DNA of 33,819 nucleotides, taken from Candidatus Zambryskiibacteriota bacterium. GTDB taxonomy: Bacteria > Patescibacteriota > Minisyncoccia > Phycocordibacterales > WO2-35-19. The stretch is taken from contig QILQ01000052.1 in the NCBI GenBank assembly GCA_003233455.1, forward strand, positions 1 through 33,819, in the 5' to 3' direction. Every line of letters starts with the position of its first letter. Position 1 is the stretch's first letter. Below the pieces are notes generated by a model that saw only the letters and a list, made by a program, of their open reading frames with translations, searched no databases and was not told where the DNA came from. The position numbers and the translations under genes were made by a program. Of the stretch, positions 5,239 through 26,085 are shown piece by piece.

Positions 5239-5656
5239 TAAAAAAGAAAATACAATTGCCATACGGCAAACAAAGGAAAAAGAAGCTGTTTTTGAAGCTC
5301 TAAAAGAAATCCCGATCGTGCAAATGGCTTGTAAAAAAGCGGGTATTGGTCGTGCAACCTATTACCGATGGCTAAAAGAAGACAGAAACTTTCAAAAGCA
5401 GGTAGACAATGCTATGAATCGGGGCTTCGAATACATTAATGACATGGGAGAAGCTCAAGTTATTATACTCATTAAAGAGAAAAAACTACCCGCTATCGCC
5501 TTATGGCTTAAGCATCATCATCCGCACTATGGAGCGAAAGTTGAAATTGAACGTAAAGGAAATATTCAAGAACCTCTCTCTGCCAAACAAGAAGAAATTG
5601 TCAGAAAAGCTCTTCAGGCGGTAAAACCTAAAAAAGCATATGAAAAAGGTAAATAA
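5225..5656 (+). CDS. small terminase subunit-like HTH protein
   Basis: EIPIVQMACKKAGIGRATYYRWLKEDRNFQKQVDNAM HTH; overlaps the upstream methyltransferase by 14 bp and the downstream TerL-like gene. Confidence 0.65.
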   Translation: MENNNKKENTIAIRQTKEKEAVFEALKEIPIVQMACKKAGIGRATYYRWLKEDRNFQKQVDNAMNRGFEYINDMGEAQVIILIKEKKLPAIALWLKHHHPHYGAKVEIERKGNIQEPLSAKQEEIVRKALQAVKPKKAYEKGK

Positions 5657-8767: not shown

Positions 8768-9307
8768 TCATTTTTCTTTAAAATCCCAATTATCTTCATA
8801 TTTTTCCAATACCGGAGTTTCTCTCAATCTGCCTTTGTGGTTTTTTGATCCAATACGAAAATTTCTCATACTAACATTTTTAGCAATTTCACCAGCTTCC
8901 TTTTTCATTTTATGAAAGTACTCAAATTCCCATCTTATATAATCCGCGACTACTTTGGCTGGAATAATGAAAAATCTAAATTGTTTTGTATTTTTTATGA
9001 TATTTGTAAAACAATAAAATAAATTATATTGTTTTTTCTTATTATATTTTCCGTGATTTTCATTCATTATCCATGAACTTGAAAATCTCCCAAAAATTCT
9101 AGATTTGATTCCATTACTGCGGATACTTCGACAATGCGTTTTTACTTCTAGTTTTAACATTCTTCCCGTCGCTGGGTCAGATACCAAAATATCAACACCT
9201 TTTGTGTTACCAAGAGTCATGTTGGCGTCTTTTCCTCGTAAAGCAAGTTGTGACAAAACAGCAAATTCTCCGGCTAAAGATACTAGTGTCTTATCATTTT
9301 TTTTCAT
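8768..9307 (-). CDS. PD-(D/E)XK nuclease-fold-like protein
   Basis: GNTKGVDILVSDPATGRMLKLEVKTH: D...(L)EVK spacing typical of the PDDEXK core. Confidence 0.55.
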   Translation of the reverse strand: MKKNDKTLVSLAGEFAVLSQLALRGKDANMTLGNTKGVDILVSDPATGRMLKLEVKTHCRSIRSNGIKSRIFGRFSSSWIMNENHGKYNKKKQYNLFYCFTNIIKNTKQFRFFIIPAKVVADYIRWEFEYFHKMKKEAGEIAKNVSMRNFRIGSKNHKGRLRETPVLEKYEDNWDFKEK

Positions 9308-9310
9308 ATT

Positions 9311-9449
9311 GTTCGTCGCGTTTTAAATAATATCTTTGTGTAGATACACAAAGCCCGCCCCTAGGAAGGCACCTTGCGGTAACCTCTACCAAAGTTTCCC
9401 TTGGTAACGCGACGAACGCCCTAAGAACGGGTTCTCTATGTTCGTCGCG
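9311..9449. other. structured intergenic element with alternating decamer GTTCGTCGCG / CGCGACGAAC / GTTCGTCGCG
   Basis: Decamer at 9311-9320, its reverse complement at 9408-9417, direct copy at 9440-9449. Inner hairpins CTTTGTGT-agat-ACACAAAG, TACCAA..TTGGTA, AGAAC-gg-GTTCT. Confidence 0.6.
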
Positions 9450-9527
9450 ATTCTTTGCCATGCCAGCAAAGCTGGTTTAGGCTCACTACTAATATTCAAT
9501 TGTTAATGTTCATAATACAGCGACCAC

Positions 9528-9586
9528 CTGTATTAGTCCACCATCTTAGCTTAGTTATTGGGGTTTGCGAAGCGAGTTACCAACAG
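9528..9586 (-). repeat. 59-bp direct repeat, copy 1 (putative cassette recombination site)
   Basis: ctgtattagtccaccatcttagcttagttattggggtttgcgaagcgagttaccaacag, identical to 19168-19226. Weaker homology extends 5' (9509 onward), including an AATACAG..CTGTATT hairpin. Confidence 0.9.
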
Positions 9587-9610
9587 GTTAGAAAAATCAA
9601 TAAATAGCAA

Positions 9611-10135
9611 CTATTTTGTCAGATAGGTATTTAATTCATTCGTTAATTTAGACACTAATTTTTTAACATCTGATTCCTCGCAACTATCTAAAAATTCACG
9701 AATTGAGGCAACGTATTTATCATTATTTGCAAACTTCGGATAGAAACCTTGCTGACCAACTTTGTATATTTCAATAAAATTTCTAAGATGAGATGTAAAG
9801 TCAGCCATTTTAATCATTTTTGCTCTTGGAGATATTGATTTTAATTTCTCATAAAATTGTATTCTCTGTTCATGATTATAGTTTTTAGGATGGGAGACTT
9901 CTTCTACTAGATCGGCGACATCTTTGGAGAAAGTTTCTTTCAATTCATTATAAGTGGTATCTGTATCTTCAAGGGTATCGTGAAGAATTGCCGCAATAAG
10001 CAAATTTTGGTCATTAATACCAAATTTGTCTTGAAGAATTTGGCAAACTTCCAAAAAGTGATTTCCTGTCCCAGCCGCTTCAAACTTTTTACGCGCAAAT
10101 TCTTTGGCTAATTCAATTTGATCAACAGATTCCAT
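9611..10135 (-). CDS. HD-domain hydrolase, small alarmone hydrolase/RelA-SpoT HD-like
   Basis: LLIAAILHDTLEDTDTTYNELKETFSKDVADLVEEVS, typical of (p)ppGpp-hydrolase HD domains. Confidence 0.75.
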   Translation of the reverse strand: MESVDQIELAKEFARKKFEAAGTGNHFLEVCQILQDKFGINDQNLLIAAILHDTLEDTDTTYNELKETFSKDVADLVEEVSHPKNYNHEQRIQFYEKLKSISPRAKMIKMADFTSHLRNFIEIYKVGQQGFYPKFANNDKYVASIREFLDSCEESDVKKLVSKLTNELNTYLTK

Positions 10136-10137
10136 TT

Positions 10138-10572
10138 TTATTGATTTAATCCCAAACTCGCAATATCACCAACTTCTCCATTTTTTACTAGCTCGCTAAT
10201 ACCATCCTTAAACTTACTGAGATAAAACTGGAGTTTTTTAGTTAAATTTATTTTAAATGCATCTTCTATACTGAAAAATTCTAATTTTTGTCCTTCGTTT
10301 CCTAATTTTATATTTGCAACATCTTCATCAGTTAAAAAAGCAAAAAATACTTTTGTGTTATCTGGAGCAGAACCAAGACATTTTAATTGTTGAGGGATAA
10401 TACTTATTTCTTCTTTCAATTCTCTTTGGATAGCTTGAAAATAATCCTCACCTTCTTCGACTCCACCACCAGGAAGCTGCCAGGTATTGGGTTCTGGAAT
10501 TTCTGGTTTATCGTCTCTTAAGATAAGTAAGATTTTGTTGTTATGGACTAAAATTGAAGTTGAAGATGTCAT
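10138..10572 (-). CDS. NUDIX hydrolase
   Basis: Nudix box GGGVEEGEDYFQAIQRELKEEISI. Confidence 0.88.
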   Translation of the reverse strand: MTSSTSILVHNNKILLILRDDKPEIPEPNTWQLPGGGVEEGEDYFQAIQRELKEEISIIPQQLKCLGSAPDNTKVFFAFLTDEDVANIKLGNEGQKLEFFSIEDAFKINLTKKLQFYLSKFKDGISELVKNGEVGDIASLGLNQ

Positions 10573-10598
10573 GAAATATATTACATTCTACCACTTGT

Positions 10599-12353
10599 TT
10601 AAAGTTTTTTGGAAAGATCTTTCATTAAGTCGTTTGCCATTTTTTGAATAGGCTTTTCAAGTGAGGCAAACTTATCATCTAATCTAGAAATACTCAACAC
10701 TTCTGCTAAAGCAAAAAGTTGGGTAAGATGCCCATCTCGTGTATTTAGTAATTCTTTAAATGTCGCCTTGAGACATCGTACAAGCGTGGGATTATCAGCG
10801 GAGAAAGCCAACAAAAGAGCTGGATCATAATTAGATGGTCCCTTTCCCCACATTTCCCAATCCAAAATATTAAGCTCGGGTTGAGTCAAATTACCCCAGT
10901 GCAAATCTCCATGTATAGTAGTCCAAGAAGAAATAGATGTATCAAATTTATCTGAAAAAACCTTTTTAATTGTTTCTGAAACCTTGTCCTGTGTGATAGC
11001 AACTCGATTTGTTTTATGTTGAGAAAGTATGTCAAGTTGTTTTTTGAGTTTTTTAAACCAAATCGCAGACGGAATATTATTTGAATTTACTAAATGAGGA
11101 TTCGTGCTACAAGGAGGCTCGCTAACATACGACGATAGTAATGCTCGCCATTTTGTACCACCCTTATCCCAATCAACATGATCAAGAAGTTGTGGTTTTG
11201 AAATGGAAGGATCAATAGAATGAGCATCCAGTTCACCATTCCAGGCATTATTGTTGTCTATTTTAGAATTGTTAGCACATTGAACCCGTATCCACACATT
11301 AGTATTGTTGTCAGTTAATGCCTTAGAACTTATGGTGGTGTCATTCCAATTATAAAACAACCCACCTTGAGGTGTAATTCCTAACTGATTCGTAATATGT
11401 ACTAATGAAGCAAGGAGATCCTTTCTGTCCTGTTGAGCCATCGGTAAGATTTTTTGTTCTTGGTATTTCATTATGTTATTAGTAGGTTTAGTTGTCGTTA
11501 TTGTTTCCCAAATATGAGGGTTTTGTGAGTTATGAACTTGATAACTCGCACAAATTCGACAATATAAATCAAGTAGGTAGTAACCCATAAAAAATATCAA
11601 ACATTTTTTTCCAGCAACATATAATGATTTACGCCAATCTTTCTCAACTCGGGAAAAGAACCTGAAATCTGTATATTGTCGTCTTCCCATTCGCGTTCGA
11701 ATTTTTTGCTTTACGAATTCACTAAGTGTCTGCGGAAATAACACTTTCACTATTGCATTTTCAACATATTTAAACCTTATACCTTTTTTGTATAATAATA
11801 AGCCAATACATCCATCTTCATTAATTATATCATCATTTAACTTAATCCTCCCGAGTAGTTCAGATTTGAGAGCATAAAGATATCCTGTTGGGTATAGGAA
11901 TAATTCCTGACCATCTTTTGATTTTCGTAAATGATGCCACGCATCACAGCCAAGTTTTGATAACTTATACATAAAACGTGACTTTTGTTTAAGTGAGACC
12001 ACGCGAGCTGTAGCCGCCAATGTATCAATTTTGTCGAGAGAGTTTATTAGGTGTGACAAGCAATTATCTCCCAAAACAATATCACCATCAGTCATGATAA
12101 CAATATCTCCTTTAGACTCCTTAAATATTATTTTTAGTGCAGACATTTTACCTTTACGCTCATTCTCAATAATTAATTGTGTAGATCTGACAGATCGGAC
12201 AATTTCATTGGTTTTATCTGTAGAACCACTTGAAACGATTATGATTTGGGTATCATATTTATTAGTTTGCGATATCACCTGATCTAAAATTCTACGAATA
12301 TTAGCTTCTTCGTTATAAACAGGGATACCTATTGTAATCTTCTTTTTTGTCAT
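10599..12353 (-). CDS. family 2 glycosyltransferase fused to a C-terminal aminoglycoside/choline kinase-like phosphotransferase
   Basis: N-term ITIGIPVYNEEANIRRILD...TDGDIVLGDN (GT2, GT-A fold); C-term TTIHGDLHWGNLTQPELNILDWEMWGKGPSNYDPALLLAF (APH-type Brenner motif). Confidence 0.8.
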   Translation of the reverse strand: MTKKKITIGIPVYNEEANIRRILDQVISQTNKYDTQIIIVSSGSTDKTNEIVRSVRSTQLIIENERKGKMSALKIIFKESKGDIVIMTDGDIVLGDNCLSHLINSLDKIDTLAATARVVSLKQKSRFMYKLSKLGCDAWHHLRKSKDGQELFLYPTGYLYALKSELLGRIKLNDDIINEDGCIGLLLYKKGIRFKYVENAIVKVLFPQTLSEFVKQKIRTRMGRRQYTDFRFFSRVEKDWRKSLYVAGKKCLIFFMGYYLLDLYCRICASYQVHNSQNPHIWETITTTKPTNNIMKYQEQKILPMAQQDRKDLLASLVHITNQLGITPQGGLFYNWNDTTISSKALTDNNTNVWIRVQCANNSKIDNNNAWNGELDAHSIDPSISKPQLLDHVDWDKGGTKWRALLSSYVSEPPCSTNPHLVNSNNIPSAIWFKKLKKQLDILSQHKTNRVAITQDKVSETIKKVFSDKFDTSISSWTTIHGDLHWGNLTQPELNILDWEMWGKGPSNYDPALLLAFSADNPTLVRCLKATFKELLNTRDGHLTQLFALAEVLSISRLDDKFASLEKPIQKMANDLMKDLSKKL

Positions 12354-12841
12354 AGGGAGATTTTAAATATGTTGTCTATTGCTTGTATAATTAGTTTAAA
12401 ATTATGCTCAACAGCAAGAACATTATTTTTTAAGTTAACTACTTTTATGTCCTCAATTTCATCGAGTGGTTTATTTAAAAAATTTCCTAGTAAATATACC
12501 TTTCCTGAGGCGTCTTCATTTGATTGTAATATTTTTTTTAGATTATACAAATCAACAGCAAATATAACAGATGAAGCACTAATATCCTTATTCTCTATAG
12601 CTCTAGGGACATGATTTGATAAATCAATCCCAAATTGTTTAGCAATGTTAATCACAACCCCATCAGGCTTGTTATAAAATAATTCTGTACCTCTAGAAAA
12701 TGCAAAGCAATTCATCGTTTGATTCTTAGCAATCATATTAAAATAATATTCTGCAAATGGGCTTCTGAAAATATTCCCAGCACAAACAAATAGAACATCG
12801 GAGAGATCAATTTTTTCCTGTTTAATGTTTATAAAATTCAT
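12350..12841 (-). CDS. low-molecular-weight protein-tyrosine phosphatase-like protein
   Basis: DVLFVCAGNIFRSPFAEYYF: C(X)5R P-loop. Confidence 0.8.
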   Translation of the reverse strand: MNFINIKQEKIDLSDVLFVCAGNIFRSPFAEYYFNMIAKNQTMNCFAFSRGTELFYNKPDGVVINIAKQFGIDLSNHVPRAIENKDISASSVIFAVDLYNLKKILQSNEDASGKVYLLGNFLNKPLDEIEDIKVVNLKNNVLAVEHNFKLIIQAIDNIFKISL

Positions 12842-12920
12842 AATAATGAGTCAAAACTATTAAATTTCATTTGGAAAATCTAACCCCTCGTTCCTTTTAC
12901 AAAACAAGGGGTTTATTGTG

Positions 12921-13853
12921 CTAAAACACAAAATTGAATGATTGAACATCCCTTACTGGCTGATTGACCTCCTCAAGCAAATTTCTCACGCTCGAGCAAT
13001 CATTTTTTTTCATCAAGATTCCAACGGAATACAACATGTTTTTCAGTATAGCCAATGGATATCTCAAGGGATAGAACTGCCTATAAAAGGGATATAGTCG
13101 TGCAAACTGGATTGTGTAATTTGTGAGACTTGAAATATATTCCCTTCTGGTTTGATATTTTGTTAAACACCAAAACAGGTTTCGAATAGCCAAATTACAA
13201 GTTAATGGGTTTGAAAATGATTGCTTACTATCATGCCAAACCACAGATTTACCTGAGAACATCAATTTACACTTGAGTCGAGACAGAACTCGTAAGGAAA
13301 ACTCGACATCTTCATGATACATAAAGAAGTCCTCGCGAAAATATGCCTCTGCACCTAGTGTTTCCAGATTTAACAACATTGCGGTTCCTGGAACAAAACT
13401 GACAACCTTGTCCTCATTCGTAGGTGTAGCTACGACGATTAAACCGCTCTCAATGTCGAAGAATAACGGGTAGCCAGAGACTATCTTCGGGTAATCTCCG
13501 TACTCAAGAATGGTAGAAGAGACAGCGCCAACCTGAGGATTGGAGTCAGCGAGTTCAATAAGTTGATGTAGCCACATCTTATCAACTATGGTGTCAATAT
13601 TTAACAAAGCTACATAAGGAGTTTTTGTTTCTCTAAGTGCAATGTTGTTGCCACCAGCCCATCCGTAATTCTTATTCATTTCTAATACTTGCACAGGAAA
13701 TTTTTTAAGAAGTTGTACGCTATGATCTAATGAATTATTATCAATAACCATAACATCAAAATCGTCAAATTCCTGAGCAAATACTGAACTTAGACACTTC
13801 TCAATAAACTGGGTGCTGTTATACGTTGGGATGACAATCGTCGCCTTTTTCAT
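12921..13853 (-). CDS. family 2 glycosyltransferase (rhamnosyltransferase-like)
   Basis: ATIVIPTYNSTQFIEKCLSSV...VMVIDNNSLDHSV...NKNYGWAGGNNIAL. Confidence 0.88.
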   Translation of the reverse strand: MKKATIVIPTYNSTQFIEKCLSSVFAQEFDDFDVMVIDNNSLDHSVQLLKKFPVQVLEMNKNYGWAGGNNIALRETKTPYVALLNIDTIVDKMWLHQLIELADSNPQVGAVSSTILEYGDYPKIVSGYPLFFDIESGLIVVATPTNEDKVVSFVPGTAMLLNLETLGAEAYFREDFFMYHEDVEFSLRVLSRLKCKLMFSGKSVVWHDSKQSFSNPLTCNLAIRNLFWCLTKYQTRREYISSLTNYTIQFARLYPFYRQFYPLRYPLAILKNMLYSVGILMKKNDCSSVRNLLEEVNQPVRDVQSFNFVF

Positions 13854-14526
13854 TTTTAAAGATCCTTTCTGTCATGTTGTTCAACCTCGTTATTTTATCA
13901 ACTTGATTGTGAAATAAGGAGCACATTTGTGATGAGTAGAGATCCATCGCATTATGTTTACTCTTTAAATCATCTGCACACAGCTTTATTGACTTGTATA
14001 ACTCCAAACCCGCGTCACTGCTTATGCGGCTGTATGGTATATCGTCGACATACAAAAGCTCAATATTTGGAATTTTCTGAGCCACCTTAACAATCAAACG
14101 ATGATCAAAATGTCGTTTGTTACCACTAGGATAATGAACAACAACTTGGTTAAGTTTACTTTTTATTATGTATTTTGTCAATCTTCGAACCAAATCATCA
14201 AATAGTTTTTTGTCTATATTTAATTGGGTTTCATTAAAAAAAACTCGCCTGTGTCGTAGGAGGCAATCTGGTATTTTGAAATAATCAAAATTAATTCCCA
14301 CCTCTTTAGCAAACCTTTTGTCTTCTTTTAATCTAGTCATTGTAACATCATCTTTTGTTTTGTATATTTCCCTCTTACTAATATCTACGTACTCCGAAAC
14401 GCCAAATATCGTTAGAAGTGTTTGGTGTTTTGATAAAATTTTCTTTCTGATAATTTGAAAACTCGACATAACTATGTCATCTGAATGAGGTGAAATAAAG
14501 CATGTTCTAATTTCATTATCTTTCAT
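13819..14526 (-). CDS. PIG-L family deacetylase-like protein
   Basis: CFISPHSDDIVMSS (cf. PHPDDE) and VVHYPSGNKRHFDHRLI; N-terminus lies in a glycan operon. Confidence 0.7.
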   Translation of the reverse strand: MKDNEIRTCFISPHSDDIVMSSFQIIRKKILSKHQTLLTIFGVSEYVDISKREIYKTKDDVTMTRLKEDKRFAKEVGINFDYFKIPDCLLRHRRVFFNETQLNIDKKLFDDLVRRLTKYIIKSKLNQVVVHYPSGNKRHFDHRLIVKVAQKIPNIELLYVDDIPYSRISSDAGLELYKSIKLCADDLKSKHNAMDLYSSQMCSLFHNQVDKITRLNNMTERIFKNEKGDDCHPNV

Positions 14527-15467
14527 ATTATAATATTTTGTAAGTAATACTCTTGAGCGCCTAATCGGTATTTATATGGTTCATTTCCTCTTGTAAAATC
14601 CATAATATTATATTTTTCTCTTTCATTTCTTAATCCGCTCCAAAAATCTAAAATTAAACCATATGACACATCGTTAGAACCTTGTTCATGAGCACGTAAA
14701 TAACATATTGAATCATGCTTGTGTGTTAAATTCAATGAACAAGCGACCAGCCTACTAGAGTCAAAACAATAATCAATATATACATGCTCTTTTAGTGTAT
14801 CGGTGAAGCAAAATTGATATATCAGGTTATTAAACTCTTTATGGAAGGAGTCGTTCATCTCTTCCACTTTTCTTGAATTCAATTTGTTATGGCGTTTATC
14901 GAGAAGCCAGGACAATAATCGTTTACCTTGATCTGTTTTAATACCAAGATATTCCCTTCCAAAAGTCAACCCAGACTCTTTACCTTTATAATACATTTTA
15001 CTTATACGCTCAGAAACTAGTGGAACAAACTGATGATTCTTAGGCTCAATGTGCAAACTATTTGTTCTTGATTTCGACGTAGCATGATTTAAAAAATGGC
15101 TACTTACATCTTCTTCAAATAACGAATTAAGCCTAAGTGTTAAATGATTTTTCTTAACATAATCTAAAAGCGGTTTATAATATGCAACTTGGTCATTTTT
15201 TATGTTATAAAAACCGTTGAAATCATTGAAGGGATCCCCAAGAAACATCAAATTACTACCATTACGCACGAAAACAGCATAATTAAGTAATTCACACGCA
15301 CTTGTGATTAAAACAATATTTTTTGGTTTATATATATGACAGTATGATTGGATCCATTCTCTCCCAGAAAAAATATAGCGATAATTAATCAGTTCTTTGG
15401 TTAAGCGTAGTGACTTAACAATCTCACTTGATGCCTCAGTGTTTATTTCTATTATTTTACCCAACAT
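14523..15467 (-). CDS. CelD/BcsL-type GNAT acyltransferase
   Basis: C-terminal YNIMDFTRGNEPYKYRLGAQEYYL is characteristic of CelD/BcsL-like GNAT proteins. Confidence 0.65.
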   Translation of the reverse strand: MLGKIIEINTEASSEIVKSLRLTKELINYRYIFSGREWIQSYCHIYKPKNIVLITSACELLNYAVFVRNGSNLMFLGDPFNDFNGFYNIKNDQVAYYKPLLDYVKKNHLTLRLNSLFEEDVSSHFLNHATSKSRTNSLHIEPKNHQFVPLVSERISKMYYKGKESGLTFGREYLGIKTDQGKRLLSWLLDKRHNKLNSRKVEEMNDSFHKEFNNLIYQFCFTDTLKEHVYIDYCFDSSRLVACSLNLTHKHDSICYLRAHEQGSNDVSYGLILDFWSGLRNEREKYNIMDFTRGNEPYKYRLGAQEYYLQNIII

Positions 15468-16570
15468 AAATTATTAAATACCTTTAAATAAACCTTAATT
15501 GCGTTTTCAATGGTATGTTCACTATTTACATAATTATATGCATCAACAATCATTGATTTTTTTCTTTTGCTATTTAGCACCTTGTCAATTTGTTTTGCAA
15601 CATCGAAACTAGAAGTATTATAAGGAAATAAAATACCTCTATCTGATGCCAACAAGGTGAGCATATGCCCCACCTCTCTTGAAACAACTAATGTTTTACT
15701 ATTCATGGCTTCTACAGCCACACGAGGGCAACCTTCCGTGTCTGAGCAAATCAACAATGCATCAGCACTACGATAATAATCGATGGTATTTTCTATAAAG
15801 CCAATAAATTGGACCCTGCTCTCTATACCAAGACGCTTTGCTTGTAATTTTAGATTATCAAGTTCATTCCCATCTCCGATTATCTTAAAACAATAATTTG
15901 TATTAAAACTATTAAGATAACTAGCGATATCTAAAAACATATCGAATCGTTTTTCTTGTGATAAACGACCAATAGCCATGATGACCCTTTCGGTTTCGCA
16001 TTTCTCAATTTTATGTATTGATTTATTTTCTAAGCGATCAAAATTGATAAATGACGGAGAGTAATATACATTATTTTGCTTGTATTTTAGAACAATTTCT
16101 TTCATACCTGGTTCAACTACAAATACTGCATCAAAACATTTTAATGTAAAATTATCAAAGAATGTTTTAATAATTTCAAACACATTATTTCTGATCCATC
16201 CGTGTTCAGTACAACTAAATGTTAAAGTAATCGACTTCCTTAATTTAGGATAATATAGAAATTTGAAAATAGTTACAATAAAATTTGAGTGGTAACCGTT
16301 TGAATGAATGACTGAAGGGTTATATTCATGAACCAATTTAGCCAACCTAAACGCACACTTCCAAATATTATCTCCTATCCATCTACTAGGTACATTATAA
16401 GAATCCAAAAAAACACCACAGTTTTTATTGTGAGAATATAGAATAGTACATTTTATGTTCGTTTTTGAATTCAGTCCCTGCGTAAGTTCTGTAGCATAAA
16501 ACTCAGCTCCTCCCAAAACAGATCCTGGACTCAATATTACCAACACATTTGTTTGTTTACTTATGTTCAT
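15452..16570 (-). CDS. GT4-type glycosyltransferase
   Basis: VIMAIGRLSQEKRFDMFLDIA...GDGNELDNLKLQAKRLGIESRVQFIGF...LICSDTEGCPRVAVEAM. Confidence 0.9.
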   Translation of the reverse strand: MNISKQTNVLVILSPGSVLGGAEFYATELTQGLNSKTNIKCTILYSHNKNCGVFLDSYNVPSRWIGDNIWKCAFRLAKLVHEYNPSVIHSNGYHSNFIVTIFKFLYYPKLRKSITLTFSCTEHGWIRNNVFEIIKTFFDNFTLKCFDAVFVVEPGMKEIVLKYKQNNVYYSPSFINFDRLENKSIHKIEKCETERVIMAIGRLSQEKRFDMFLDIASYLNSFNTNYCFKIIGDGNELDNLKLQAKRLGIESRVQFIGFIENTIDYYRSADALLICSDTEGCPRVAVEAMNSKTLVVSREVGHMLTLLASDRGILFPYNTSSFDVAKQIDKVLNSKRKKSMIVDAYNYVNSEHTIENAIKVYLKVFNNLCWVK

Positions 16571-17432
16571 TTATATATTTATCCATATTTCGATAACCTC
16601 TTACATATTGTTTGTAATAATCAATAAAAGGCTGTCTAGATTTTTTTAAAAAAAGGCATTTTATTTGTTCAACTACTAACCATTTAACAAATTTAAAAAG
16701 ATGATAGAAATAATCAAGTTTTGATATTTTGTTCATTTTAGAGAAGAATGCTCCTGCTGCATAGCCATATAATTGCATTTGTTGCTGATCTTCTCCTGTC
16801 GATCTCCATGACCGATGAACAACAATAGCTGATGGTTCATAAAGAATTTTATATCCACTTGTCAAAACCCTATACCCCCAATCGTTATCGTCAGAGCTTA
16901 AAAAGAGAGAGCCTGGACCTAAATTTTCATCAAAACCACCAATATTTATTACAACCTCTTTATTAAAAGCCATGTTGCATCCAGATAAGATAAATATTGG
17001 TGTGATTATTCCCTTTTTGTACAATTTACGTCTACTTAAAATATCGTCTAGACGTGACTTGACCGAATTATCCTCAATATCACCAGCAACTACTCGGCCA
17101 GTAATAATATCTGTAGTAGTTTCGTTAAATACTCGGACAAGATTCTCTACCCATCTTTCATCAGCCAAACAATCGTCATCAATAATGGCAATATATTTTG
17201 AGATAGATTTATGAATCCCTTCATTAATCGCTTTTGATTTGTTTTGGTCAAACAACTTAACGTACGTAAATAAATAATCTCGGCATATATTTTCTGTTTT
17301 TTTATCAAAAGATTGATCAAGAATTATAATCTCATCAGGTTTAAGTGATTGTCTCCTTAAACTATCAAATACAGGCCTCAACATATGACTTCTATTAGCA
17401 GTAGCTAATAATATTGTGATATTTGTTCTCAT
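16557..17432 (-). CDS. family 2 glycosyltransferase
   Basis: NITILLATANRSHMLRPVFDSL...IIILDQSFDKKTENI...IAIIDDDCLADERWVENL. Confidence 0.88.
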   Translation of the reverse strand: MRTNITILLATANRSHMLRPVFDSLRRQSLKPDEIIILDQSFDKKTENICRDYLFTYVKLFDQNKSKAINEGIHKSISKYIAIIDDDCLADERWVENLVRVFNETTTDIITGRVVAGDIEDNSVKSRLDDILSRRKLYKKGIITPIFILSGCNMAFNKEVVINIGGFDENLGPGSLFLSSDDNDWGYRVLTSGYKILYEPSAIVVHRSWRSTGEDQQQMQLYGYAAGAFFSKMNKISKLDYFYHLFKFVKWLVVEQIKCLFLKKSRQPFIDYYKQYVRGYRNMDKYINEHK

Positions 17433-17464
17433 TTGTATATTCTATATAATGAGACAATACCATA

Positions 17465-18031
17465 TCAACAATATAATTGCTTAAATTCTTTTTCGACCTC
17501 ACTTGCATCTTCAAATGTTTTGTAACCATATCGCTCTGCCTCTTCTTTGTATTTCTTACCTTCGTAATAATAAAACATTTCAGCTTCTTTTCTTTGTAAT
17601 TCTTCAGTCTTTCCCCAGCGTGGATCTTCCATATTCCGTTTAAGTATTAATTCAAAAGATTCACCTAGTAAATAAATACCTGATATTTCATTGTATTCTT
17701 TCATCAAATGAGGTAGTAGATTTACTCCTTCAAAAATAGCTGGTTTACCATCAGTAATCACTGAATCAATCTTATTTTTAATTGTTGGCCAAAATGCTTC
17801 TGATTGATTTTTTAGATTTTGCCAATCCTGATCACAAGAAGTATTTTCCCAATATTCTGTTTCGTCTTGGTCAAGAAAGAAATTAACCCATTTTTTTAGT
17901 TTTTCATCTTTTGTCATTTCTCCACGTAAATTATCAATATCGACATGAAGCAAATTTAATTCCTTTGCCATCTTACTAGCCAACCAACTTTTTCCCGAAG
18001 CCGGTATTCCACTGATAAAAAAGTATTTCAT
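17465..18031 (-). CDS. P-loop nucleotide/2-phosphoglycerate kinase-like protein
   Basis: FFISGIPASGKSWLASKMAKEL Walker A. Confidence 0.7.
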   Translation of the reverse strand: MKYFFISGIPASGKSWLASKMAKELNLLHVDIDNLRGEMTKDEKLKKWVNFFLDQDETEYWENTSCDQDWQNLKNQSEAFWPTIKNKIDSVITDGKPAIFEGVNLLPHLMKEYNEISGIYLLGESFELILKRNMEDPRWGKTEELQRKEAEMFYYYEGKKYKEEAERYGYKTFEDASEVEKEFKQLYC

Positions 18032-18774
18032 ATTATTAATAAATCTTTTAACAACTTAAATTCTTTTTCTTTTTTAATCACTTCTTCATGATACTTGTTT
18101 GTTTTCCAATAAATCTTGTAAGCATTAGCTGATGATTTAGAGCTGATAATTCTATATTTATCATCAATAATTTCAATGGTACAGCAATTATCTATAGCGA
18201 CAGCAATGCCTGGCGTTTTCCTCATCATTTTTTTAAGGTCTGGTTTTCTATCTTTCTCAAAATCATAGTGTGGACAATACAGAGCATTTATTAAACCAAG
18301 ACCGGAAACTTTTATTAAATCCGCTTTGGAGTTAACAGATTTTCTGGAATCAGAACTTCCATATTTAAACCAACAAATTGAACCAGCACTCAATCCCGAA
18401 AGAACGGTACCTTTCTCATAAGCTCGTTTTAAAATTTTATCAACACCAGTTTTTCTCCAAATATTCATCATTTTCAAAGTATTGCCGCCACCAACATAGA
18501 TTATATCTGAACCAAAAACCTTTTTCTCAATCTCTTTCTTGCTAAGATTTTTGTTTATTAAATACAAAACATCGGTTTTGCATCCAAGTTTGCCAAAATG
18601 TTTTTTTACAGTTTCGTAATACGATTCTGAATCAGCACTGGCAGTTGGAATAAAAAGTAATCTGGGATTTTTCTTTCCCGTTAGTTTTATTATTTCTTTG
18701 TCTATTCGGGTGGTTTCTACAGGAAAACCTGGTCTACCTATTTCACCGCCACCAATGGCCATAATTTTTTTCAT
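18028..18774 (-). CDS. peptidase S51 (dipeptidase E-like)
   Basis: IMAIGGGEIG...DIIYVGGGNTLKMM...LSGLSAGSICWF nucleophile elbow. Confidence 0.85.
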   Translation of the reverse strand: MKKIMAIGGGEIGRPGFPVETTRIDKEIIKLTGKKNPRLLFIPTASADSESYYETVKKHFGKLGCKTDVLYLINKNLSKKEIEKKVFGSDIIYVGGGNTLKMMNIWRKTGVDKILKRAYEKGTVLSGLSAGSICWFKYGSSDSRKSVNSKADLIKVSGLGLINALYCPHYDFEKDRKPDLKKMMRKTPGIAVAIDNCCTIEIIDDKYRIISSKSSANAYKIYWKTNKYHEEVIKKEKEFKLLKDLLII

Positions 18775-18815
18775 AAATTTATAATACTACGATTTTGGAG
18801 CGAAAATAGATGGCC

Positions 18816-19130
18816 TTATAAAAGGCCAAATTCAACGGTAATTTCATTAGGGACTTTTTTATCCAACTCTGTATTTATTATCCCACCAATATTTAAAAAC
18901 ATTTTGAGTGATCGCTTATTGTGCTCCTGAATATGGGCGTATAATTTTTTGACCTTTTTGTTCCGACACATATCTAAAAAATATTTCACAAAATTTGAGC
19001 CGATACCTTTGCCCCTATAATCTTTTTGTATGGTTATTTGTTCTAAATACCAATGTTCAGAATTGTCATGGAATTTTTTATCCCATCCGAGAAACCCAAT
19101 GATTTTGTTTTCATAAACTTTAAAAGTGTA
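18816..19130 (-). pseudogene. GNAT acetyltransferase, 5'-truncated
   Basis: Manual translation: YTFKVYENKIIGFLGWDKKFHDNSEHWYLEQITIQKDYRGKGIGSNFVKYFLDMCRNKKVKKLYAHIQEHNKRSLKMFLNIGGIINTELDKKVPNEITVEFGLL*. GNAT motif A YRGKGIG present, N-terminus missing, in-frame TAG immediately upstream, no usable start. Confidence 0.75.
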
Positions 19131-19167
19131 CTAGTTTGAGTACTATATATTCATAGTACAACGGGTA

Positions 19168-19226
19168 CTGTATTAGTCCACCATCTTAGCTTAGTTATTG
19201 GGGTTTGCGAAGCGAGTTACCAACAG
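19168..19226 (-). repeat. 59-bp direct repeat, copy 2 (putative cassette recombination site)
   Basis: Identical over 59/59 bp to 9528-9586; upstream 19150-19163 also matches 9509-9522 at 12/14. Confidence 0.9.
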
Positions 19227-19229
19227 TCT

Positions 19230-20435
19230 CTATATGTTCCTACTTCCGAATATTTGTATTATCCCAGCACCTTTATAGTCTTCTCGTCTGTAATCTTTTA
19301 CTTTCAACAGTAACTCTGGAAAGTTATTTTGAACCATTTTTATATCTCTGGGAGTTTTACTTAGAGTACTCGCTAATTTCTTTTTTAATGCTATTGTTAG
19401 TTTTATTTTATTTTTCTCATCTGAATTAAAGATAAAAATATCTTGGTTATTAACCCTTACAATATTATTCATCTTTCCAAATTCAGCCTTTCTTCTCACT
19501 TTCACCTGAACAATACCGTGGAAAAATATGAAGAATTTCAAAATCGTCTGCGATACTATATCAAACGCATCTGACTGGAAATTGGTTCTACTAGGTATTG
19601 GAAATTGAGGTGGTAAATATCCTCTCTGATCAAACAAATCAGCATGGGCCACATCTTCTTTATTTCTCTTCTTCCATAGTTTCAAAATATCCTTTTTTAT
19701 TTCATTAGATAAACCAATAGTCTTAGACATAGATTCTAATCTATTGGGAAAATACCTACCAGTAAATATTTTGGTTAGCACTTCTACACTCTTTGCTAAA
19801 TCAAGGATAACTTTGTCTAACAGGAACCCCTGGTGGAATAATCGCCTGGCTTCAAGAAAATACTCGAGTGATTTGCTTACAGTATAAATATCTGTTTTAT
19901 ATATTCTGTTTATCAAATCTTTACCCTCTTCATCAAAATTATTTTCTATGGGAAGGTTTATTTGACTCACTGAACCCCCAAAAAATATTTTATCTTCATC
20001 AACTTCTTTTTCTTTATCATTTACTATCTGATAAATCTTACATATTTGATAATCATACGGTTTAAATAAATATCTGTTGTGCTTCCTTTCAAATAAAGAT
20101 GAAGCAGACAAAGATAATGAAACTACTAGTCTGTCGAATCTGCCTATGGCAACGCCCAATACACCACCGAGATCTGGGTATGAAATGTCTGTGTAAGTTA
20201 CAATCTGGCTTTTTATAATACGACTATCCGAAGTCCTCACTGGTATGAGAAAACTCTTATAATCCGTGGTAACTATCGATTCTGGATTTTTAACAGCCAA
20301 TGGAGAAAAGTGTCTATTTTTCTGTTCTTCCTGTGTCATCGTGACAATAAAGCAGTCTCCAATCTTCAATTTTTCTTTAGGTAAGATATAACCAATTATT
20401 TTTGCATAGATTCTATATTTACTAGTACTTTTCAT
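19230..20435 (-). CDS. hypothetical protein with HEPN-like motif
   Basis: LFHQGFLLDKVILDLAKSVEVLTKIF...LWKKRNKEDVAHADLF: RNx5H resembling HEPN Rx4-6H. Stop codon 3 bp from the 59-bp repeat. Confidence 0.5.
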   Translation of the reverse strand: MKSTSKYRIYAKIIGYILPKEKLKIGDCFIVTMTQEEQKNRHFSPLAVKNPESIVTTDYKSFLIPVRTSDSRIIKSQIVTYTDISYPDLGGVLGVAIGRFDRLVVSLSLSASSLFERKHNRYLFKPYDYQICKIYQIVNDKEKEVDEDKIFFGGSVSQINLPIENNFDEEGKDLINRIYKTDIYTVSKSLEYFLEARRLFHQGFLLDKVILDLAKSVEVLTKIFTGRYFPNRLESMSKTIGLSNEIKKDILKLWKKRNKEDVAHADLFDQRGYLPPQFPIPSRTNFQSDAFDIVSQTILKFFIFFHGIVQVKVRRKAEFGKMNNIVRVNNQDIFIFNSDEKNKIKLTIALKKKLASTLSKTPRDIKMVQNNFPELLLKVKDYRREDYKGAGIIQIFGSRNI

Positions 20436-20534
20436 TATTTTAAAGTTTATTCAAGTTATTCAAATCTTCTTAAGAATTTTTGTTGATCATATAAATTTTT
20501 ACCTAACAGAAATCTATAATATTACAATAGACTT

Positions 20535-21551
20535 TTAACCCTTTATTTTATATTCACCCGATTCTAATTTGGATACAATTTCCTTCGTACCTTCATTAAA
20601 AGTTTTGAATGCATCACCTTTTAGTGGTTCATCTTTTATTTGAAGAAGTTTTTTCTTAATATTTTTATCCACTCCTTCTATATCATCAATAGTCTTTATG
20701 AATACATTTGGTTCATTTCGTAATAAAAACCACTCTTTATCAGTATTTTTATTTTTATCTAATAAGTCTAAATCTTCGTGTGTCATTTTTGGGAATAAAT
20801 AATAGAATTTTTTATTATAAAAATAATATTTAGTGAGAAACATTTCACCTACAGCAATATGACCAGCACGTTGTGATCCGTCAGTAAAATTCCTTCTACT
20901 TCTCCCAGCGTATTTTATAACATAATCATCTTTTATTATTGTTGATCTTTTTTTTGCAAATTCATTCCAATCTCCCTTATAAAATAATTGGAATTTTTCA
21001 TTGAATATTTCATACATCTTTTCCAGATAATCTTTTATAAAAAGATCAAAAGAGTTTTTATCGTTATATCTTTCTAATAATTCTTTTACTACATTAAGAT
21101 CATCCGTTATTAAATAATTACCTTTTTCTACTTGAGAGGCATAGTAAGCCATTCCATATAGATCTGGTTGTATTTTAGTAAGACCTTTTTTAAGATAATA
21201 GACCCCAACCAGGCCATTTTTAACAGCACCTAATGCATGATGAAATCTTTGGTATAGAGCATTTCCGCCAGAATTTCTATTTAGAGCATCAGTCCCTTCA
21301 AGTGCAATCACTGGTTTTTTATCAATTTCTTTCCCATTAAGTCCATCAATCCACTTTTCATCAACATACCACGCCGCATCACACGAACCATAAGAGACCC
21401 CATTAAACCCAAAGGTAAGACCACCTTCTGAGAATAATTTTTGATCATCATTACTACTTTGTGGAAAAATGCGTAGTTTAATATCGTTAATCTCATGACC
21501 AAGATAATCTATAATTTCTCGTTTTATTATTTCATCACTTGAATATGCCAT
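20535..21551 (-). CDS. putative restriction endonuclease subunit
   Basis: SCDAAWYVDEKW...KKPVIALEGTDALNRNSGG: D...ExT nuclease-like core; adjacent to two DNA methyltransferases. Confidence 0.55.
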   Translation of the reverse strand: MAYSSDEIIKREIIDYLGHEINDIKLRIFPQSSNDDQKLFSEGGLTFGFNGVSYGSCDAAWYVDEKWIDGLNGKEIDKKPVIALEGTDALNRNSGGNALYQRFHHALGAVKNGLVGVYYLKKGLTKIQPDLYGMAYYASQVEKGNYLITDDLNVVKELLERYNDKNSFDLFIKDYLEKMYEIFNEKFQLFYKGDWNEFAKKRSTIIKDDYVIKYAGRSRRNFTDGSQRAGHIAVGEMFLTKYYFYNKKFYYLFPKMTHEDLDLLDKNKNTDKEWFLLRNEPNVFIKTIDDIEGVDKNIKKKLLQIKDEPLKGDAFKTFNEGTKEIVSKLESGEYKIKG

Positions 21552-21552
21552 A

Positions 21553-22653
21553 TTATAAAGATTTTATTTTCTCTAAAATTTCTTCTATTTCTAACTCTAA
21601 AACAAAACTGACAAGGTCTGATTCTTTGTTCATTTTTCTATTCTTAACTTCAAAATAAAATTTTTTGAGCTCATCATTGGTAAAATTAGCAATCAGATAA
21701 AATTTTATATAATTTCCAAGCCAATCGATGTACTCTTTTTGTGATAAAGAATCCTCTGCAACATATTTAGTCTCTGGGAGAGTTATTTTGATTTTGTAGT
21801 TAATATCAAGTGTAATTAAGCCGAAATAATCTTTGGATGGTTTTGTTTTAGATGGATGAATTTCAAATCCCTGATCAAACAATCCAGTATTGAGATATTT
21901 CTCTAATTGTTTGGTCATAACTGAATTACCGGTCTTTGCCTCACCCACAATAAAATTATGTGTGACATTGTTATGTTCTGCCCTTGTTCCATGCTTAAAA
22001 TTTCTAATAAGTGCCAACTCAATCATATGGAAGCCCTCGTTAGGTAAATAACCATAACTGCTTATTTTTGTTATTATCTCATTGAGACCATACCCCGCAA
22101 AATCTGGCGATCCAATTGCATGAGCGAGAGGTATTTGACTTTCAACGATAAAACCAAGATGTCTGAAATATTCTCCCGCTAAATATTCCATGAACGGTTC
22201 CATACCATTACCCTGTTTACTTGTCTCGATTCTTTGGATTATATAATTTTCCCTGTCTTTAATGTAGTCAAATTTTTCTCTGAGTATATTATTTAGTTCT
22301 TCCTCTGATTCGAATTCAACTGGTACTACGTATTTATCACTTTCAAACAAATGGTGCTTCGCTTGAGACAGAATATACGGAGTATTTTTCAAAACCCCGT
22401 TGTCAAAAATTCCAGAAACAAATTTGTAGCTGAAAGCGTTATAAAATAACTTCATTAAACCCTTGGGGGTAAACTGATAAGTTGGATTCTCTAAATAACC
22501 AGCACCTGTAACACTGCTATAAATAAAAGCTTCTTTGGGTGGCATCTTGACTGCTGTACCCATTTCAGTCTCAACAATTCCAAAATTGAAATTGTTTTTA
22601 AATATTTTTAAAAAATCTTGTTTGTATATTTCCATATGTTTAAATATGTTCAA
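21553..22653 (-). CDS. putative restriction endonuclease, PD-(D/E)XK
   Basis: AIGSPDFAGYG...HNFIVGEAKTGNS: PD...ExK arrangement; overlaps the methyltransferase gene by 14 bp. Confidence 0.6.
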   Translation of the reverse strand: MNIFKHMEIYKQDFLKIFKNNFNFGIVETEMGTAVKMPPKEAFIYSSVTGAGYLENPTYQFTPKGLMKLFYNAFSYKFVSGIFDNGVLKNTPYILSQAKHHLFESDKYVVPVEFESEEELNNILREKFDYIKDRENYIIQRIETSKQGNGMEPFMEYLAGEYFRHLGFIVESQIPLAHAIGSPDFAGYGLNEIITKISSYGYLPNEGFHMIELALIRNFKHGTRAEHNNVTHNFIVGEAKTGNSVMTKQLEKYLNTGLFDQGFEIHPSKTKPSKDYFGLITLDINYKIKITLPETKYVAEDSLSQKEYIDWLGNYIKFYLIANFTNDELKKFYFEVKNRKMNKESDLVSFVLELEIEEILEKIKSL

Positions 22654-24256
22654 ATTTAAATAACGCCGATTGTGTAACTTCTTTATTTTGATGTTGAGTA
22701 GCTTTCTGAAAAAGATTTGTGATACTTTCGATATTTAATTTTTCATAATCAGCCACCTGTGATCCGTCGAAAATTTTACTAATTACCACACCCACAAATA
22801 AATCATAAGCTTTGTTAAGATTGAATAATTTACCATTATTTTCCCCTAAATACTTTATGATTTCATCAGCAATTTCATTAGGATATGCAACTTTTTTACT
22901 TGAAGTTTTGATCTTATTTCTCCTATTCTTGAATGTAACATAGAAATCCGATTTGGGGGAGAATTTTGCCCAGTTTTTGTTGTATGGACTTCCAAAGGTA
23001 TCGTAAGATGAAATGTCTACCAATTCCATTCCATTATCCCTTATTAATTCCGCCAAATTTATCCAAATCTTCAAATCCTTATTTTGAAAAGCTAAGGTAA
23101 AATAAGCATTCTTTTTTAAAACTCTTCTGACTTCACTAATAAAAGAAACGAGTTGATTATAATATTCGTTTATTCCTTTATTCTGAACAGGATTGATGAT
23201 CACTTCTTTATCTATATTAAATTCTTTATTAAGCCAACAATTCCAAATATATGAAAGTTCTGAATATTGGATAGTATCCCCGTAAGGAGGGTCTGTAATT
23301 AAATAATTTATGCTTGATGGTTTGACCTCAGACATTTTTAAGGATGACTTATTGTAAAGCTTTGATCTAGGTTTAGAAATCTGGTTTTGTGAGGCTTTTT
23401 CTGCAATGACCTCTTTCGCCATTTTGACATTATTAACACGATCAACAAATCTCCACCACACATTTTCTTCGATAAAGTCGTCCGGAATCCAAAAATTATT
23501 TACACTAAGAGGGCGGACATTTTCAGCCTTCAATTTGCTTACGTGCAATAAGGTATTAGTAAAGGCAAGCACAAACAACTTTTTATTTTTTAAGGATAAG
23601 TTGTTGATTGTATTATAAAGCAGGGCTAATGATAATAAATTTCTCTTTGAGAACATATCCGATACACGACGTACGCCTTTATATGAAAATCTGTCTTTAT
23701 AAAATTTACTTGGGAAATCTTTATCTGGGTAATTTAAATTTTCTGGGAATTTTATATTTGGCTTTATCTTATTTTTTGATAAGGTAACCTTTTCTTTATT
23801 TTGGAAATTTTCGTTGGCAATTATAGCGTTATAATCTTTTTCATTTTTTTTACCTAAAATAGTGTAAAGAATATATTTGTCTTTTATTTTGTAAAGAGAC
23901 ATTATTTTTTTTCTCACTGCCTTTTCAATCATTCTGAATTCCTTTTCAAGAAGTGCCTGGTCATAACTAATATTTAGTGAATTCTGTGTAAGAAAAACTG
24001 CAAAAGGATTTAGATCATATCCGATAAAATTTCTACCAGCGAGTATTGACTGTAATCCAATAATTCCACTACCACAAAATGGATCCAAAACTAAATCATT
24101 TTCCTTTGAAAATTTCTGAATATATCGATCAATAACAAACCATGGTTTCCTTGACCAATATTTATGAAGTTTGGCGACACGAGAATACTTCCTGTCATAC
24201 CCAATAGCATTTATATCGATCAGATTATTTACAATTTGTGGGAGAGTTAAAGACAT
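22640..24256 (-). CDS. DNA methyltransferase (DPPY type)
   Basis: LVLDPFCGSGIIGLQSILAGRNFIGYDLNPFA and YLITDPPYGDTIQYSELSYIWNCWL. Confidence 0.88.
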   Translation of the reverse strand: MSLTLPQIVNNLIDINAIGYDRKYSRVAKLHKYWSRKPWFVIDRYIQKFSKENDLVLDPFCGSGIIGLQSILAGRNFIGYDLNPFAVFLTQNSLNISYDQALLEKEFRMIEKAVRKKIMSLYKIKDKYILYTILGKKNEKDYNAIIANENFQNKEKVTLSKNKIKPNIKFPENLNYPDKDFPSKFYKDRFSYKGVRRVSDMFSKRNLLSLALLYNTINNLSLKNKKLFVLAFTNTLLHVSKLKAENVRPLSVNNFWIPDDFIEENVWWRFVDRVNNVKMAKEVIAEKASQNQISKPRSKLYNKSSLKMSEVKPSSINYLITDPPYGDTIQYSELSYIWNCWLNKEFNIDKEVIINPVQNKGINEYYNQLVSFISEVRRVLKKNAYFTLAFQNKDLKIWINLAELIRDNGMELVDISSYDTFGSPYNKNWAKFSPKSDFYVTFKNRRNKIKTSSKKVAYPNEIADEIIKYLGENNGKLFNLNKAYDLFVGVVISKIFDGSQVADYEKLNIESITNLFQKATQHQNKEVTQSALFKFEHI

Positions 24257-24257
24257 A

Positions 24258-25280
24258 TTATTTCTTTTTAAAAATTAGGCAGTAGTGATGAAGGATATTA
24301 CTAGCCCATGCCGAAGGATAACCATAAGGGGCAAGTCCTACCTTATCTTGTATCCAAAGTTTTTCATCTTTAAGCTGATATTTTTTGGAAAGAATCCGCG
24401 CTAAATCCCATGCTAAAGGGTACATTTTGCCTTCTTTTTTAATATTTTTAACAATAACAGTCAGATACCCACCATCTTTGAGTAAATCAAAAATATCAAA
24501 ATAGATTTTAGCCAATCTTTCTAGAAATAATTCATAATCTTCAACATTGCCTAAATCATCTTGGTGCTCTGAATAATTCACATCAAAACCATTCTTAGTT
24601 CTATCAGTCTTAAAATTTTTTGTGCTTCGATTTAAAACATTCCAGTATGGTGGTGATGATATTGAGTAATCAATTTTTGGTAGATTAAGTTTCTTGATAT
24701 CTTCAGCATTTTTATTGAAAATATTTTTTTTAAATTCGGGCGTTCTTTTTATAGATAGTTTGTAATATTTCTTGTTCAATTCAATTCCGTAGCCAACTCT
24801 ACCAGTACGTTTACAAGCAACAAGAGTGCTTCCAATCCCACAAAAAGGGTCTAGAACATTTTCGCCTTTTTTAGTGAAAAATTTTACAAAATCCTCAATC
24901 ATTGTTGGTGAAAATGTAGCTGGGTGATCTTGGGTGTTGGGGGATATTTCTCGTTCTTCTTTTAAATCTTTTTGTAAAGCATTAAAAATAAACCAGCTAC
25001 AGCTAAATTTTACCCACTCCTTGCCAGTCATGTTATTTAAATGATTAGACAGATCATAAGCACCGTTTTCGGGATCAATTAAAATAGCATTAGCTTTTTC
25101 AATATCACCACTAGGATTGTATAGAGCAACGTCTTGCCATTTCTCCAAAAAATATTCTGGTATCAATTTTTTTCTTGTTTTGTAAATTTCAGCAAGTTTC
25201 TTCTTCGCTAGTTTATTTTTCTCTTTATCCAAAACAGGTACAACCTGTTTTTTATCTTTGTAATAAAAATAATTCTTCAT
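24258..25280 (-). CDS. DNA methyltransferase (SPPY type, likely N4-cytosine)
   Basis: VLDPFCGIGSTLVACKRTGRVGYGIELN and YSISSPPYWNVLNRS. Confidence 0.88.
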   Translation of the reverse strand: MKNYFYYKDKKQVVPVLDKEKNKLAKKKLAEIYKTRKKLIPEYFLEKWQDVALYNPSGDIEKANAILIDPENGAYDLSNHLNNMTGKEWVKFSCSWFIFNALQKDLKEEREISPNTQDHPATFSPTMIEDFVKFFTKKGENVLDPFCGIGSTLVACKRTGRVGYGIELNKKYYKLSIKRTPEFKKNIFNKNAEDIKKLNLPKIDYSISSPPYWNVLNRSTKNFKTDRTKNGFDVNYSEHQDDLGNVEDYELFLERLAKIYFDIFDLLKDGGYLTVIVKNIKKEGKMYPLAWDLARILSKKYQLKDEKLWIQDKVGLAPYGYPSAWASNILHHYCLIFKKK

Positions 25281-25939
25281 ATTAATTTCTCATTCTTAAA
25301 ACTAAAATAATTGCTTTTTGTGACAATAATATGATCTATTATTTCAATACCTAAAATCTTACCCGCTTCTGTTAACTGTCTAGTGGTTTCTAAATCATCT
25401 TCTGATGCTTCTGAATCTCCAGATGGATGATTATGGGCAATTATTATCTGTGCGGCTAGATAACGTACTGCTGGCTCAAATACTTCTCTAGGATGGACAA
25501 GATTACCGTTTAGGGAACCAATGGAAATAATTTCGCGTTTGATTTCTTGATTTCTGGAGTCAAGGAAGAAAATAACAAAATGCTCCTTTTTGTGGTCACG
25601 TAAATCTTTGAGTTCGTCCCAAACATCTTTTGGGGATAGAAGCAAGGATGATTGTTTGTTTTGCAAAAGTCGTCGACCTAGTTCGAAACAAGCGACAATC
25701 TCACATGCTTTTGCACTACCCAAACCAAAAGTATCTTTTAACTCCTTAACATTTGCCTTACTTAATCCATCGCCACTAAACTTTTTGAGTATTTTATTTG
25801 AAAGTTCTACAACATTCACTCCTTTCGTACCAGTTCCCAAAAGAATTGCCAAAAGTTCTGAATTTGAAAGTCGTTCAGGTCCATATTTTCCAAGCTTTTC
25901 TCGTGGTCTATCAATTTTTGGTAAGTCTTTTATTTTCAT
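25277..25939 (-). CDS. radC: RadC/JAB-domain DNA repair-like protein
   Basis: IKDLPKIDRPREKLGKYGPERLSNSELLAILLGTG...IIIAHNHPSGDSEASEDDLETTRQL. MKIKDLP start preferred; the ORF-track start at 26005 adds a non-homologous extension. Confidence 0.9.
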   Translation of the reverse strand: MKIKDLPKIDRPREKLGKYGPERLSNSELLAILLGTGTKGVNVVELSNKILKKFSGDGLSKANVKELKDTFGLGSAKACEIVACFELGRRLLQNKQSSLLLSPKDVWDELKDLRDHKKEHFVIFFLDSRNQEIKREIISIGSLNGNLVHPREVFEPAVRYLAAQIIIAHNHPSGDSEASEDDLETTRQLTEAGKILGIEIIDHIIVTKSNYFSFKNEKLI

Positions 25940-25990
25940 AATTAGCTTTATTTTAGCAGTTTTTACACATTTTGGTAGGCTGTTTGATAG

Positions 25991-26030
25991 TAGCTTAAAA
26001 CACATTTTTAAAGAAATAAGTTGCCAACAG
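25991..26030 (-). repeat. degenerate third copy of the repeat core (tagctta-N22-gttgccaacag)
   Basis: Shares tagctta and gtt(a/g)ccaacag with the 59-bp repeats at exactly the same 22-nt spacing; located between radC and the divergent recombinase. Confidence 0.4.
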
Positions 26031-26085
26031 TTTGTCTACTACGGGTCTTGGACTAAGTTCGAGTCCAGCGTCATTCATTAAGTAT

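Follow-up and report, generated by a model that had tools for sequence, protein, structure and literature searches.

Does a perfect direct repeat of 59 bp, found in a Candidatus Zambryskiibacteriota bacterium, merely record a duplication, or does it mark the end of an element that moves? The window analysed here is one entire contig of 33,819 nucleotides. As first noticed, the sequences at 9528-9586 and 19168-19226 are identical at 59/59 positions, in the same orientation and 9640 bp apart; the chance expectation for such repeat pairs is about 2e-27. The homology of the two copies extends, with differences, to approximately 81 bp (9507-9586 and 19147-19226, 91%). The source genome (736 kb, 52 contigs searched) contains two copies and no more, and searches with exact patterns and blastn gave no match in GTDB contigs, IMG/VR or phage records. 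Diverged relatives of the element occur in other genera and families. The initial annotation had linked a simple duplication to the existence of only two copies and the lack of structural conservation in any genome. This situation was not what we found, and simple duplication was rejected because the core and arm described below are common to relatives elsewhere.

The initial annotation had favoured a recombination site or mobile element end, which is near to the reading that we regard as the best one: the core at which the repeat begins is found again at cassette borders and beside a serine recombinase. It had missed the minus-strand promoter, the LOOT leader that follows copy 1, and the matching half-site and recombinase at 26 kb. 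Considering all of these features, the repeat probably forms the 5' boundary of a gene cassette within a capture platform that resembles an integron and is run by a serine, not a tyrosine, recombinase. The features concerned are the following.

8768..9307, minus strand: first gene 3' of LOOT, 179 aa.
9366..9483, minus strand: LOOT RNA (Rfam RF03000), leader of the next gene; 67.6 bits, E 7.8e-11.
9507..9586, minus strand: copy 1, containing 9528-9586; putative cassette border (core, arm) and hairpin promoter ahead of LOOT.
9512..9540, minus strand: predicted promoter, with -35-like TGGACT (9535-9540), 17-nt spacer and -10-like TATTAT (9512-9517), from the sequence and alignment A1.
9513..9535, minus strand: inverted repeat TAATACAG/CTGTATTA over the promoter spacer and -10 box, covarying in relatives.
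9545..9554, minus strand: conserved arm block CTAAGCTAAG.
9576..9584, minus strand: core GTTGGTAAC of copy 1, with CT before it.
9585..19224, minus strand: putative cassette 1 (9.6 kb), all intact genes on the minus strand.
19147..19226, minus strand: copy 2, with the same arm and promoter and without LOOT, followed by a GNAT-like remnant that lacks its start.
19216..19224, minus strand: core GTTGGTAAC of copy 2.
19225..26028, minus strand: putative cassette 2 (6.8 kb), adjoining the recombinase, all genes on the minus strand.
26020..26039, minus strand: recombinase-side site (half-site GTAGACAAA, CT, core GTTGGCAAC), just upstream of LSR2.
26086..27417, plus strand: large serine recombinase LSR2 (Resolvase, Recombinase, Zn_ribbon_recom), divergent from the cassettes.

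On the minus strand, each copy consists of a 9-bp core (GTTGGTAAC), a conserved arm (CTTCGCAA…CTAAGCTAAG) and a promoter, and the complete order is CT-GTTGGTAAC-TCGCTTCGCAAACCCC-N-CTAAGCTAAG-N-TGGACT-17 nt-TATTAT. The last elements of the repeat represent, as judged from their sequence, a predicted sigma-70-like promoter. The hairpin AATACAG-CGACCAC-CTGTATT proposed for the 5' side is present exactly, at 9514-9534, where it spans the promoter spacer and the -10 box; copy 2 has a weaker version of altered sequence. The suggestion that its stem be inspected for compensatory changes proved fruitful, and the hairpin is structurally conserved. In a set of 34 relatives' promoters, partly hand-picked from arm-block loci and aligned by plain MAFFT (alignment A1), the 8-bp stem is paired in 84% of cells and contains 45 double-change cells versus 14.6 +/- 3.6 after shuffling that ignores relatedness (0/500), with a covariation score of 0.475 versus 0.175. 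These values were much lower when the helix was slid. In a separate test, a significant inverted repeat was detected in 45% of the arm-block loci versus 12% of those without the arm block. RNAalifold gave no consensus fold on alignment A1; the counted helix, though clear, is short and AT-rich. The inverted repeat may act either as a double-stranded operator or as a single-strand hairpin. A second hairpin that had been proposed near the other end (TTGG..TTGC-gaa-GCGA..CCAA) can be drawn in the window sequence, but is not conserved: it shows no covariation, and 62% of its cells are paired, as in the shuffles.

Behind the promoter of copy 1 lies a LOOT RNA that passes the Rfam gathering threshold (67.6 versus 46.4 bits); no LOOT match was found after copy 2. 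The 179-aa protein encoded next resembles, by eye, the AGE(Y/F)-type, PD-(D/E)XK-like protein that follows LOOT in another locus (L007). LOOT has been mentioned, without a function, as a metagenomic RNA (PMC7779021). At the Rfam cut-off, it was detected in 122 of the 297 genomes of the order (Paceibacterota/Parcubacteria), often in multiple copies, and in none of 14 control genomes. Most of the 114 loci extracted show a -10-like box, followed shortly 5' of LOOT by ACAAYTRAATA, and a subset also contains the core, arm and inverted repeat. The core is located 60-135 nt upstream of 26 of 113 LOOT loci, once in reverse orientation and never farther upstream, and is absent from about 70% of the loci. 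We rejected the idea that the repeat is a 5' domain of the LOOT RNA, because the promoter intervenes and many LOOT loci lack the arm. Genome G004 carries six LOOT copies (including L056, L068, L083 and L091) and no LSR2-family gene, indicating that LOOT can exist off-platform.

The third core of the window lies beside LSR2. The three cores, at 26020, 19216 and 9576, are all preceded by CT, and within the window no further core was found beyond copy 1 or in the 6.4 kb available beyond LSR2. LSR2 belongs to the same family as the recombinases adjacent to LOOT elsewhere (52-60% identity), and its best PDB relatives are YokA and other serine recombinases. The geometry of its site recurs upstream of many related recombinase genes. 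An LSR2 orthologue (75%) resides near dnaX in a genome of another genus (G001), at the same locus with different cargo. The dnaX/tRNA-Gln region (26.0-31 kb in the window; L231-L235) is a hot spot for the family: in several genomes, dnaX has an LSR gene or a LOOT unit in its vicinity. The window also encodes a second, distinct recombinase, LSR1 (1193-2785), which is 33% identical to LSR2; no recognisable core was found upstream of it, nor were attachment sites of its own. An 8.5-kb element reaching from LSR1 (1193) to copy 1 was rejected, because LSR1 has no upstream half-site and because LSR2, not LSR1, is in the LOOT-linked family.

Relatives of LSR2 were identified in 88 of 247 genomes of the order, with named matches that include Campbell-, Nomura-, Adler-, Kaiser- and Staskawiczbacteria, and at several LOOT loci a divergent large serine recombinase is the upstream neighbour. 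When LSR and LOOT were paired within 15 kb, 42 of the 45 pairs were divergent, with LOOT upstream of LSR, a result with a probability of 3e-22 under a 1-in-4 chance model. The divergent pairs comprise 16 that are adjacent ('empty', 128-222 bp) and 26 with 1.4-11 kb of variable cargo between LSR and LOOT. The strict core GTTG[AG][CT]AAC was found on the expected strand upstream of 31 of 57 LSR genes, that is, in about half of the LSR upstream regions, never in reverse and in none of 49 control stretches. Some LSR-adjacent LOOT loci contain a palindromic full site, TTTTGCTAAG..GTTGGCAAC-NN-GTTGGYAAC..CTTAGCAAAA. The same LSR and core were also found on two contigs from a collection of viral metagenomes, one of which has LOOT as well. 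The genes downstream of LSR are ordinary ones and in some lineages shared. We also considered a matching dinucleotide before GTTGG as the overlap and rejected it, since in several arrays the two bases at the LSR-side border mismatch those at the LOOT-side one. The genomes were one representative per species, mostly drafts and without strain pairs, and among them no near-identical pair was found in which one genome has the site empty and the other has it filled.

At five empty platforms (L113, L082, L067, L115 and L035), long inverted repeats that look covarying flank the core (TTTTGCTAAG/CTTAGCAAAA; AAATCACTGAGGGG/CCCCTCAGTGATTT in L113). Six others (L040, L044, L047, L054, L098 and L100) have TGCATAGnCTATGCAGAACTA and CATACTCGCG between the arms instead of GTTGGYAAC, and these possibly represent another type of site.

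The intervals between the window's three cores (6.8 and 9.6 kb) both carry accessory genes. Cassette 1 encodes the GNAT remnant, an S51 peptidase, a kinase-like AAA protein, glycosyltransferases, PIG-L, LMW phosphatase, NUDIX and HD proteins, and close homologues of its S51 and HD proteins are mostly absent from other genomes of the genus. Cassette 2 encodes a RadC-like JAB protein, two N6/N4 methyltransferases and unknown genes. Across platforms, the cargo consists mainly of methyltransferases and restriction systems; inserts include type I systems, a cation ATPase, transporters, NUDIX proteins and glycosyltransferases (several named by eye), and a ParB-methyltransferase with a terminase-small-subunit-like gene is a recurring cargo. 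This methyltransferase and small-subunit pair recurs beside LSR genes in several genomes, and genes for a ParB-N6/N4 methyltransferase and terminase small-subunit-like and large-subunit-like proteins stand in a row at 3910-6656 of the window. The coding length of the cargo is mostly directed away from LSR (33464 versus 13136 aa), and promoter-like sequence lies next to the core in multi-gene units. Small MerR/HTH_17 proteins are encoded by the first cassette gene beside the core in three loci (L178 361-549, L159 339-524 and L166 355-2100), once fused to HsdM; they are candidates for excision factors or for regulators acting on the promoter inverted repeat.

A cargo segment shared by two platforms defines a left border exactly. 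L170 and L199 contain a homologous 2.9-kb segment (77% identical), the left end of which is the first core base in both; identity is 38% over the 60 bp before the core and 70-77% after it. Their LSR-side DNA differs, one having a second LSR-side arm and the other unrelated sequence. A homologous gene block adjoins LSR in L195, L197 and L213 and lies past another unit in L204. No conserved 3' half-site was found at the cassette ends.

A mechanism can be proposed for these arrangements. The chromosomal LSR2 would adjoin an attachment site of the form [GTAGRYAAR] NN [GTTGGYAAC], on the far side of which there would be a promoter and, in most cases, a LOOT leader and an accessory gene behind it. 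By joining circular or incoming DNA at the core, the recombinase would let cargo build up between LSR and the LOOT unit, with the newest unit beside LSR. Each cargo unit would open with a core and its own promoter and close just before the next core, and insertions by the resident recombinase would push the LOOT unit outward. Two such units, of 6.8 and 9.6 kb, would have come to lie between LSR2 and the LOOT unit of the window, which would place the arm-promoter module at two borders. From these arrangements we infer catalysis of insertion and excision by LSR2, a crossover within GTTGGYAAC, circular intermediates and a newest-first order. Several findings speak against this scheme: the mismatched bases before GTTGG, the absence of the strict core from about half of the LSR upstream regions and of the core from about 70% of the LOOT loci, the size of the cargo units in comparison with those of integrons, and the failure to find a conserved 3' half-site or a near-identical genome pair that differs in the filling of the site. 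The scheme also gives no detailed account of the identity of copies 1 and 2.

The main rival explanation is the tandem accretion of LSR mobile elements, in which serial insertions at the same site, as in SCC or genomic islands, brought in elements that partly lack a recombinase, with LSR2 being carried by one of them. The nearest named NCBIfam models of LSR2 are indeed SCC recombinases, although its CcrB match (E 1.4e-29, 103 bits) is far below the cut-off of 900; the segments are long and multi-genic, a different second LSR is present in the window, and terminase-like genes recur in the cargo. However, LSR appears to lie outside the inserts and diverges from LOOT, and in the 16 empty platforms there is no element between the two. 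The ordinary and partly shared genes downstream of LSR also speak against accretion, and the lack of additional cores past LSR2 and copy 1 weighs against it to a degree. We consider this explanation unlikely.

A purely regulatory role is much less probable. According to this explanation, a conserved promoter, with LOOT, was copied by homologous recombination or gene conversion and its linkage to LSR is incidental. The module does contain a promoter whose inverted repeat covaries, and genomes that lack the LSR2 family, such as G004, can carry LOOT, but the divergence of nearly all LSR-LOOT pairs, the core on the LSR side and the shared segment that starts at the core would be left unexplained. 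Least probable of all is a prophage or phage-satellite end, with LSR, terminase-like genes and LOOT as phage components and the repeats as attachment sites: the ParB-methyltransferase and terminase small-subunit-like genes near LSR and the two viral-collection matches point that way, but the window proteins searched included none recognisable as a structural component of a phage head or tail, restriction-modification systems, transporters and similar genes make up the other inserts, no DNA match was obtained in the phage collection, and LSR and LOOT point away from each other instead of facing inwards over a phage body.

Returning to cassette capture by a serine recombinase, we are inclined, by a rather narrow preference, towards a broader formulation: a 'serine integron', that is, a chromosomal cassette-capture system of Patescibacteria that may have evolved independently of the tyrosine-recombinase integrons, would collect mainly restriction-modification and accessory genes, with a hairpin promoter and LOOT leading the outermost unit. 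Integrons are regarded as an invention of tyrosine recombinases. If the proposal is true, modular gene capture would have had an independent origin and spread through reduced parasitic bacteria, which would account for the exchange of defence and surface genes among such small genomes and would offer a serine recombinase that may use short sites (about 20-60 bp). The orphan LOOT RNA gains a genomic context. In literature that covered few subscription papers and preprints, no description of such a system was found under integrons or integron-like serine recombinases in Candidate Phyla Radiation/Patescibacteria; papers of broader scope, judged by their titles and abstracts, likewise yielded none. 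No link of LOOT to a serine recombinase, the core or the hairpin promoter was found in the literature searched.

Among known systems, the closest in operation are integrons, which are tyrosine-recombinase (IntI) systems with attI, attC cassettes and Pc. As in integrons, the recombinase gene diverges from an adjacent site, which in the window occupies 26020-26039; accessory genes pile up between the recombinase and older material; and a short core starting with GTT marks the cassette borders. Cassettes bounded by a conserved site lie beside the recombinase, as seen from the left border in L170/L199 and from the 26 platforms with variable inserts, whose insertion is deduced from comparison. In contrast to integrons, the enzyme is a serine recombinase, the cargo units are large (1.4-11 kb) and multi-genic with their own promoter rather than promoterless single-gene cassettes driven by Pc, and the LOOT promoter is displaced outward instead of being kept at the site. 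At the cassette borders, the 5' core and arm are conserved, the second hairpin lacks covariation and no folded site resembling attC was identified. Because the enzyme is not an IntI tyrosine recombinase, the platform is not filed as an integron, although it appears to work like one. RF03000 clearly matches the sequence after copy 1, but the Rfam family covers the RNA alone. Mobile or duplicated promoters are similar in that a promoter module is repeated before unrelated genes; the module described here, however, starts with the core of a recombination site, and a dedicated recombinase lies beside that core. SCC elements carry their recombinase within the cassette, and their site is in rlmH. 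The CcrAB/CcrC systems of SCC share with the present platforms large serine recombinases, arrays of cargo segments at one chromosomal place and common restriction genes, but LSR2 does not reach the Ccr family cut-offs, and the recombinase here appears, from 42 of the 45 pairs, to stand outside the cargo.
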